Shown here piece after piece: positions 45,808 through 48,044 of a stretch of DNA of 64,000 bases. The stretch lies in NCBI GenBank assembly GCA_947259275.1, contig CAMYMH010000036.1:1-64000 (forward strand), given 5' to 3'. Each line of letters begins with the position of its first letter. Within the stretch, counting starts at the first letter, position 1. Origin of the DNA: an uncultured Acidimicrobiaceae bacterium (GTDB lineage: Bacteria; Actinomycetota; Acidimicrobiia; Spongiisociales; SHLN01). The notes beneath the pieces were generated by a model. It ran no database searches. It saw only the letters and a program-made list of their open reading frames with translations, and was not told where the DNA came from. The position numbers and the translations under genes were made by a program.

Positions 45808-46284
45808 CTACGGATTTCGATCCTCGAGCGTACGCATGAACACTTGCATGCCGTAATGCACTGCGATCATGCCGCCTGAATCGACCTGCTCGGGGTGGCG
45901 GTACATGAGGTGGGCGTAGCGCAGGGCCCACCTCTCTGCGGGCGTGAATTCGGGGGCATCCTTGCCGCCCCTCGATCCAGCATCGATCTGCTCTTCGGTG
46001 AGCCCGGCTGCAGTCGCCTTGGTTGACCTCAGGCCGGCGAAGTACGGATCTTGGGCCGTACGGGCAAGCTGGATGCGCACGATCTCTTTCAATCTGTGAT
46101 CAACGTTCCCGTCTAGGAAGGAGGTCGCCAGGGCGTCGCCAAGGGCTTGTGCGTATTTCGGGGCATGGGCAAGGATCCGCGGAAAGATCCCGTCTGGATC
46201 CCCCATGTCTGCGAAGGCTTCCAACACTCCGCCGAGGCCTTGGGCCTGGGCGGTCTGCCGATCTATCGGATCGATCATGGGCAC
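45808..46284 (-). CDS. Carboxymuconolactone decarboxylase-like protein lacking CxxC
   Basis: 158 aa from a GTG at 46284 (GGAAGGAA six bases upstream); an ATG at 46278 is also possible. The CMD/AhpD-like fold is shown by 'VDHRLKEIVRIQLARTA', 'GLTEEQIDAG', 'EFTPAERWALRYAHLMYRHP' and 'VHYGMQVFMRTLE'. In relatives the redox motif reads 'CPYCAGLRS'; here it is 'DPYFAGLRS', with both cysteines lost, so peroxidase-type redox chemistry is not expected. It lies 13 bp behind the paralogue that carries a Cys plus an in-frame TGA, so a non-catalytic partner subunit is a plausible idea. Confidence 0.85.
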   Translation of the reverse strand: MPMIDPIDRQTAQAQGLGGVLEAFADMGDPDGIFPRILAHAPKYAQALGDALATSFLDGNVDHRLKEIVRIQLARTAQDPYFAGLRSTKATAAGLTEEQIDAGSRGGKDAPEFTPAERWALRYAHLMYRHPEQVDSGGMIAVHYGMQVFMRTLEDRNP

Positions 46285-46297
46285 GGAGAGTTCCTTC

Positions 46298-46948
46298 CTA
46301 GCTGGTGACTTGGTCATCTTCGCGAGCTCGTGCCCGCGCGCCGTCAAGGTGGGAAACGGGGGTGTCGCCGTAGATCCGACGAGATTCCTCCTGGCTCACG
46401 AGGCGGCCGTCCGGCGTAAACATCGGGTAGAAGTCGAGCGTCCGGAAGAACGTGTGGTAGCCGACGTTGAAGCCGATGAAGGCCCCGAGCTCAACTACCT
46501 CGGCCTCGGTGTAGTGCTCACGCAACCGATCGTAGAAAGCCGCGTCGATCTTCTCGGGTGCGAACTGCATGAGCTCGCTGTACTCGAGGGCGATCTTCTC
46601 TGCCTCGGTGAATTGCGGGCTATCCCGCCAATTGTCGACGCCCTCGTCGATGCGCTCTTCGGTTAGGCCATTCCGCTTCGCCGAAGCAGATCGGACATTT
46701 CCTCAATAGTTACAGAAGGCGGCTCGGGACAGTTGGACCCGGATGATCTCCTTGAGCGAGTGGTCAACACTCCCGGTGTTGAACACTGTCCCCCAAGCAA
46801 TGTATAGCGCCTTCGAGAGCTCGGGATTGTGGCCCTGGATGGCATGGAACGCCGGGTCCGGAGCCTTGTGTTTCAGGCATTTCCTGACGAACGGCGCCAG
46901 CTCGGACTCCATCAAGTCGTCGATCTCGAGCATCGAGATGTTTGGCAT
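46298..46948 (-). CDS. Candidate AhpD/CMD-like selenoprotein with in-frame TGA
   Basis: 216 aa if the TGA at 46705-46703 is decoded as selenocysteine; started at the ATG at 46948 (GGGAG upstream; another ATG at 46966). Before the TGA: 'NTGSVDHSLKEIIRVQLSRA' then 'AFCNY'. After it, in the same frame: 'GNVRSASAKRNGLTEERIDE', continuing to a normal stop. The TGA is residue 82, giving C79-N-Y-U82 where the family has CxxC. All other codons are open and family-like. A stem-loop lies 8 nt downstream (46668-46694). The alternative is a pseudogene with a single Cys-to-stop change. Selenocysteine genes were not seen in the window. It follows the phosphotransferase gene by 37 bp. Confidence 0.7.
46668..46694 (-). 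promoter_or_regulatory. Candidate bacterial SECIS element
   Basis: Minus-strand stem CCGATCTGCTTC / GAAGCGGAATGG, with one A-A mismatch and two G-T wobbles, closed by loop GGC. The stem begins 8 nt and the loop 21 nt after the in-frame TGA. Published bacterial SECIS models place the apical loop about 16-37 nt downstream and need a G in the first two loop positions; both hold here. Confidence 0.6.
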
Positions 46949-46985
46949 CGCAGCTCCCACTTCCATCCGAGGGCTCGAAGTGATG

Positions 46986-48044
46986 CTACCGGCTCAGATC
47001 TGCTGCGTGGTTGGCGATCAATGTCACCAGCTCGCCGAGGCCGGCGAATCGCTCGTCTCGGGTTTGGCCTCGCACCCACCGGATGTGGATCTGGGCGAGG
47101 ATGACGGCCACCCGGTACAACCCGAGGACGTGGTAGAAGCCGATGCCGGCTACATCTCGTCCGCTCGCCAGCGCGTACAGCTCGATCACGTCGGCACGGC
47201 TGGGGAAACCGCTCGCATCGTGTGGCATAGGGGAAAAGGCTCGGACCTCGGACGGATCGTCGTCTTCGATCCAGTAAGTGAGGAGCGTCCCCAGGTCCGA
47301 TAGCGGGTCACCGAGGGTGGTCATGTCCCAATCGAATACCGCCACCAGCCGGCCGGGATCCTCGGCGGAGAACATCGTGTTGTCGAGCTTGTAGTCGTTG
47401 TGGATGAGGGCGGGCGGCGAGTCCGGCGGCAGGTTGTCGGTCAGCCACCGGTGGGTAGCATCCATCGCCGGGACCTCCTCGTGCTTGGCCTTTTCCCAGC
47501 GCCCGAACCATCCCTGCACCTGCCGCTCGATGAAGCCGGCCGGCTTGCCGAGATCTTCGAGCCCGAGCGATGGGTAGTCAATCGAGTGGAGCTGCGCCAG
47601 GCCGTCGACCAGGGCTTCACCGAGCCGCCGGGTGGCGTCGGGAAAGGCGAGATACGCCTCCGGGAGGCGCCTCCGCACCACCAATCCGTAGCGCCGTTCC
47701 ATGACGAAGAAGGGCGCCCCGATGACCGACTCGTCCTCGCATAGCAGGAAGGACCGGGGAGCAGGCTCGTATGCCGCGTGAAGCACGGAAAGCACCGCAT
47801 GCTCCCGGGTCATATCGTGCGACTTGGGAGCGATCGGGCCAAGCGGCGGGCGCCGCAGCACATACACGTGCTCTCCGTAGTCCAACTCGTAGGTGAGGTT
47901 GGCCGCTCCCCCGCCGAACTGGCGGACCACCAACGGCTGGTCCGAGCCGGCCAGCCGCCCCCGCAAGTAGGAGGCAACGGCTTGCTCATCGAAGCGCTCA
48001 TCGGCCCGTACCTCGATGGTCTCGTGCTCCGGCTCCGAGATCAT
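46986..48044 (-). CDS. Aminoglycoside-phosphotransferase family kinase (ACAD10-type)
   Basis: 352 aa from the ATG at 48044. Kinase-fold APH family: N-lobe 'RQFGGGAANLTYELDYGEHV...YVLRRPPLGP', catalytic loop 'ALIHNDYKLDNTMF' (H-N-D and N), and metal Asp in 'VFDWDMTTLGDPLSDLG'. The 'RRPPLG...SHDMTREH' stretch is typical of the group related to the kinase domain of ACAD10, which phosphorylates hydroxyacyl-CoA intermediates. Antibiotic resistance is unlikely. It is first in a minus-strand operon with the two CMD-like genes and divergent from the VOC gene. Confidence 0.88.
   Translation of the reverse strand: MISEPEHETIEVRADERFDEQAVASYLRGRLAGSDQPLVVRQFGGGAANLTYELDYGEHVYVLRRPPLGPIAPKSHDMTREHAVLSVLHAAYEPAPRSFLLCEDESVIGAPFFVMERRYGLVVRRRLPEAYLAFPDATRRLGEALVDGLAQLHSIDYPSLGLEDLGKPAGFIERQVQGWFGRWEKAKHEEVPAMDATHRWLTDNLPPDSPPALIHNDYKLDNTMFSAEDPGRLVAVFDWDMTTLGDPLSDLGTLLTYWIEDDDPSEVRAFSPMPHDASGFPSRADVIELYALASGRDVAGIGFYHVLGLYRVAVILAQIHIRWVRGQTRDERFAGLGELVTLIANHAADLSR

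Follow-up and report, generated by a model that had tools for sequence, protein, structure and literature searches.

The peroxidase active site of AhpD is made up of a glutamate, a Cys-x-x-Cys pair and a histidine, and ordinary AhpD/CMD proteins are homo-oligomers. Selenoproteins of the AhpD/CMD type carrying CxxU have been known since 2005 (PMC1088965). The earlier note on the present locus rightly mentioned such proteins from metagenomic surveys, which, in the sections available, name the groups AhpD-like 1 (COG2128), AhpD-like 2 and CMD (Pfam02627) (PMC1088965, PMC2398784, PMC13188914). Two AhpD-like domains are joined in Sestrin, a stress protein of animals. In human Sestrin2 the Sesn-A half keeps Cys125 and Tyr127, has Leu128 for the second Cys and reduces alkylhydroperoxides (cumene hydroperoxide), and the Sesn-C half has no catalytic Cys (PMC4674687). 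A review seeking bacterial precursors of the Sestrins lists fused bacterial dimers of the AhpD-like type whose N-terminal half is dead; its accessible text makes no mention of the selenocysteine (Sec) pair described here (PMC11429811).

The locus lies in a window of 64,000 nucleotides, by which we mean the whole stretch of DNA analysed, from a genome of the class Acidimicrobiia (3.85 Mb, 97 contigs, about 95% complete). Its features are as follows.

46298..46948, minus strand: predicted Sec-containing CMD/AhpD-like protein of 216 aa, with U82 in C79-N-Y-U82, from Pfam and the orthologue alignment.
46703..46705, minus strand: TGA predicted to be read as Sec, codon 82 (codon 88 from the ATG at 46966), TGA in 44/44 close orthologues.
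46712..46714, minus strand: Cys79 codon, the putative resolving or partner Cys of CxxU, invariant in the orthologue alignment.
46673..46689, minus strand: predicted SECIS core hairpin of 7 bp, with a GGC apical loop at 46680-46682, the loop 20 nt after the UGA.
45808..46284, minus strand: partner gene for a paralogous CMD protein, with D-P-Y-F for C-N-Y-U, GTG start 13 nt past the stop of the Sec gene.

The gene limits given earlier, 46298-46948, were exact; the strand, then unstated, is the minus strand, with the ATG at 46948-46946 and a terminal TAG at 46300-46298. A second in-frame ATG upstream, at 46966, gives a reading of 222 aa, and the start was set at 46948 because the orthologues begin M(P/S)NI. 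The TGA was said to take the second redox position of a CxxC motif. It does follow C-x-x, and the Pfam CMD domain PF02627 runs through it (residues 53-127 of the 222-aa reading, E 3.8e-8), the Sec protein scoring 33.6 bits, above the gathering cut-off of 23. A frame that is open across a TGA is weak evidence by itself, because the window, at 65% GC, contains 92 TGAs flanked by at least 70 open codons on either side. With open-frame pairs so frequent by chance, and since a lone TGA can arise by nonsense mutation or sequencing error, an ordinary CxxC protein damaged in one of these ways had to be considered. For this putative selenoprotein, the conclusive part of the case is the comparative evidence. 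Two long plus-strand ORFs that overlap the Sec gene in antisense, 46205-46666 and 46743-47303, seem to be incidental to the GC-rich coding sequence.

Close orthologues (at least 64% identity, distinct genomes, n=44) were collected by a scan of genome contigs and by searches of genome groups. Their hosts are Acidimicrobiia, records labelled Nitrospinota, Rhodospirillales/Defluviicoccus and other Alphaproteobacteria, and SAR324. In these independent assemblies TGA stood at the codon 82 position every time and Cys in 0/44; in the alignment of relatives proposed earlier, Cys (TGC) at this codon was confined to CMD clades with an identity of about 36% at most. Selection was comparable before and after the TGA (dN/dS 0-0.20 and 0.02-0.24, respectively), so that nothing points to the decay of a pseudogene. 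The invariant TGA, the purifying selection on both sides and the conserved SECIS described below refute a nonsense mutation or sequencing error, which we regard as having a negligible probability.

The earlier note had also described a stem with a GGC loop 8 nt downstream of the TGA. The hairpin is present (CUGCUUC-GGC-GAAGCGG in the window); its core loop is 20 nt after the UGA, and the stem can be followed from 8 nt if mismatched outer pairs are included. The bacterial SECIS model calls for a loop of 3-9 nt with G in the first two positions, a stem of 4-16 bp and a loop 16-37 nt after the UGA (PMC13188914), and the GGC loop, 7 bp and 20 nt found here fit it. Thermodynamics alone is weak evidence: a 66-nt stretch folded by RNAfold did no better than shuffles, the isolated 23-mer did better (-9.6 kcal/mol, z -3.15), and Rfam at gathering thresholds gave no match in the window. 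Conservation is what backs the hairpin. Among 26 orthologues, in rows carrying the majority residue, codons +6 to +10 after the TGA (GCT TCG GCG AAG CAG) had zero synonymous variation, compared with a mean normalised entropy of 0.71 outside them and about 0.48-0.52 in the lowest windows off the hairpin. The orthologue hairpin, CUGCUUC-GGC-GAAGCAG, was paired in 98.6% of cells. Distant CxYU homologues have a hairpin at the same position and of the same length made of other bases (e.g., CUGUCCA-GGC-UGGACAG), and their loop is GGC, apart from GGG in two cases and one sequence that is shifted. With close and distant sets combined, 97.6% of cells were paired and five of the seven pairs covaried on both sides. 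Changes on both sides occurred in 40 cells, as against 14 +/- 3.5 in shuffles, a test inflated by related rows, and at most 9 in slid controls, which keep the relatedness. Judged from the aligned sequences, the hairpin at 46689-46673 is a bacterial SECIS.

Further CMD homologues with a TGA were seen. A second selenoprotein clade, CxYU-GVQRS, occurs in L019, L021, L024 and L026-L029, of the same order, and in L067, of the same phylum; homology searches of the loci fetched found no such partner beside it, its tree neighbours are CxxC, and in most members a SECIS hairpin keeps the geometry but is built of different bases. A divergent homologue of 33% identity (L039:1630-1677) has a TGA as well, followed in the same register by a perfect 7-bp hairpin with a GGC loop.

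The search for selA, selB, selC and selD that had been proposed found the complete machinery in the same genome: tRNA-Sec (72 bits, above the Rfam cut-off, with a UCA anticodon, ARAGORN agreeing), selA (421 bits) with selB directly behind it, and selD (389 bits). This selD (contig C3:2458-3387, L010) has one in-frame TGA itself, so that SelD is probably a selenoprotein, as it is in many bacteria. Readthrough of the UGA might also occur outside a Sec system, by reassignment to Trp or by leakiness, and the frame would be open either way; but several orthologues use TGA as the terminal stop of the Sec gene or its partner, the alignment puts Cys and not Trp opposite the residue, and the tRNA-Sec, selA/B/D and the SECIS are all present, so this is extremely improbable. 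Carriage of the Sec gene was also associated with selA. In a sample of 297 genomes from an alphaproteobacterial order with few selA genes, selA was found in 16/23 carriers versus 23/274 non-carriers (Fisher p 4.5e-11), and four of the seven carriers lacking a selA match have tRNA-Sec. The same comparison is uninformative in the host's own order because 110/138 genomes there have selA above cut-off. In genome L051 (1504-6282) the Sec gene and its partner adjoin divergent selA and selB, which suggests joint transfer or co-regulation. Given the Sec machinery, the invariant TGA and the frozen and covarying SECIS, the earlier proposal that the UGA encodes selenocysteine is well backed, and 46948-46298 on the minus strand is almost certainly a true selenoprotein gene.

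The earlier note had not mentioned the partner, the fusion or the resemblance to Sestrin. The partner also belongs to PF02627 (28 bits, gathering cut-off 23) and was present in 41/41 orthologue loci where the contig continues, mostly at a spacing of -4 to +27 nt. It has Asp for Cys in 40/41 and Phe for Sec in 40/41, whereas Glu, Tyr and Arg near the active site are retained. The partners form one clade (support 100/99), which the tree as drawn places beside that of the Sec proteins (join 81/88), with the groups broadly mirrored between the two. In one SAR324 genome (L055) a single open frame of 426 residues, linker included, covers both proteins, and no further fusion was found among 52 SAR324-phylum genomes. 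The AlphaFold model of this fusion had a pLDDT of 86.1 and a pTM of 0.86 over its 426 residues, from an alignment of 18 rows, 8 of them joined by reading TAG as Gln. The Sec protein might instead act by itself, as a homo-oligomeric AhpD-like enzyme, with the DPYF paralogue a separate protein merely co-transcribed. Homo-oligomers are the rule in the family, and the partner evolves faster than the Sec protein and in this genome has an internal deletion. However, the pair is the sole neighbourhood conserved across phyla in the orthologue loci compared, and the constant linkage, mirrored clades, natural fusion and confident two-domain model all speak for association, so that a solitary enzyme seems rather improbable. 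A pseudo-symmetric heterodimer or higher heteromer of Sec protein and partner is likely. The deletion, seen against an acidimicrobial orthologue (L041), removes about 18 in-frame residues, NSFYEEGKRHFTEAQIMEI being replaced by S near 45877-45884, and is either real or an assembly error. The other neighbours (FAA hydrolase, CoA-transferase, M24 peptidase and xanthine-dehydrogenase-type genes) differ by locus and indicate no clear pathway, and a plasmid search returned CMD proteins that were all distant (<60% identity).

In the orthologue alignment E67, C79 and U82 are invariant, i.e., the CxxC/CxxU of AhpD with its upstream Glu is present. The AhpD His, four residues past the second redox residue, is an invariant Arg86 here. 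Because of this replacement AhpD peroxidase chemistry is not to be assumed, and the chemistry of the Sec protein may differ from that of AhpD. We infer the following scheme. Under the direction of the hairpin at 46689-46673, SelB with Sec-tRNA would insert Sec at the UGA (46705-46703). The resulting subunit would have the AhpD/CMD fold and Cys79-x-x-Sec82 as its redox centre, and would associate with the partner as the active and dead halves of Sestrin2 are arranged. Sec would be the attacking residue, most likely reducing a hydroperoxide or another oxidised or halogenated substrate; the selenenic acid would be resolved by Cys79 to a selenenyl-sulfide, and this would be reduced by a thiol donor. 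The dead subunit would provide dimer contacts and active-site stability, perhaps along with a binding role for a ligand or docking partner. Taken as a whole, SECIS-directed Sec insertion into a Cys79-x-x-Sec82 subunit that forms a Sestrin2-like heteromer with a dead partner is the best explanation, and we hold it to be very probable. The activity is most likely that of a Sec-dependent (alkyl)hydroperoxide or disulfide reductase in a heteromer with a non-catalytic subunit; that the substrate is of the peroxidase type is a guess, with somewhat less than an even chance of being right.

The model of the Sec protein alone (pLDDT 76.5) matched PA0269, Bmp8 and other AhpD-like structures. Of the solved structures, those of the CMD-fold debrominase Bmp8 (6ohi) and of PA0269 (2ijc/2o4d) come closest to the Sec subunit; they differ from it in having no Sec and are about 20-25% identical. 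That Bmp8 ranks so near, both by profile (1.2e-10) and by fold, raises the question of a reductive dehalogenase or another non-peroxide reductase. Bmp8 itself is only about 20% identical and the neighbourhood has no conserved genes for halogenation or dehalogenation, and we consider such an enzyme unlikely.

Among curated families, NF053654 (YciW-related (seleno)protein), TIGR01926 and NF041047 (GSU3128) belong to the same superfamily, the first and last being named as (seleno)protein families. The Sec protein scored far below their cut-offs (71.6 vs 310, 34.2 vs 81.8 and 16.8 vs 110, respectively). No curated NCBIfam model covers the subfamily, and the gene can therefore be expected to appear as two fragments in standard annotation. 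The proteins of the surveys, found in reads or short contigs, share with ours the CMD/AhpD fold, CxxU and a downstream bacterial SECIS. As far as the available descriptions go, and only by these are they set apart, no Cys-less partner is described for them, and they list Cys homologues, whereas none was found in the present subfamily. Nearly all selenoproteins have Cys forms, according to the portion of PMC13188914 available, so a subfamily that is Sec-only in the genomes sampled is unusual. The literature searched, some of it in excerpt, held no mention of a Cys-less AhpD partner of a selenoprotein. Because of this, and of the distance from every NCBIfam model, the selenoprotein subfamily with its obligate dead partner appears, in comparison with published descriptions, to be new; the CxxU AhpD/CMD type was already known.

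The best PDB match of the fusion model was human Sestrin2 (E 3.3e-5, TMq 0.50, rmsd 7-15 A), a top rank partly forced because the PDB may contain no single chains with two CMD domains other than Sestrins. Neither a profile search (E<=1) nor Pfam (E<=10) detected kinship with Sestrin at the sequence level, and the claim is therefore that the pair works like a Sestrin, not that it is a member of the family. As modelled in the fusion, the pair and Sestrin would resemble each other in having two AhpD-like halves, redox-active first and dead second, with C-x-Y in the active half. From the common C-x-Y spacing, Sec82 would occupy the Leu128 position. The differences are that here two genes are found in nearly all genomes, that Sec replaces Leu128 and that the partner has D-x-Y-F. 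The active half also comes first in the fusion, whereas in the bacterial fused dimers, as PMC11429811 presents them in its accessible text, the dead half does. We propose, tentatively and at rather less than even confidence, that the obligate Sec AhpD and its dead paralogue, found in several phyla, are a bacterial, selenium-dependent, two-subunit counterpart of Sestrin, one that would show how the active-plus-dead architecture can arise ahead of fusion. The dead partner and the natural fusion provide a testable bacterial model for the Sestrin-like combination of active and inactive AhpD units.
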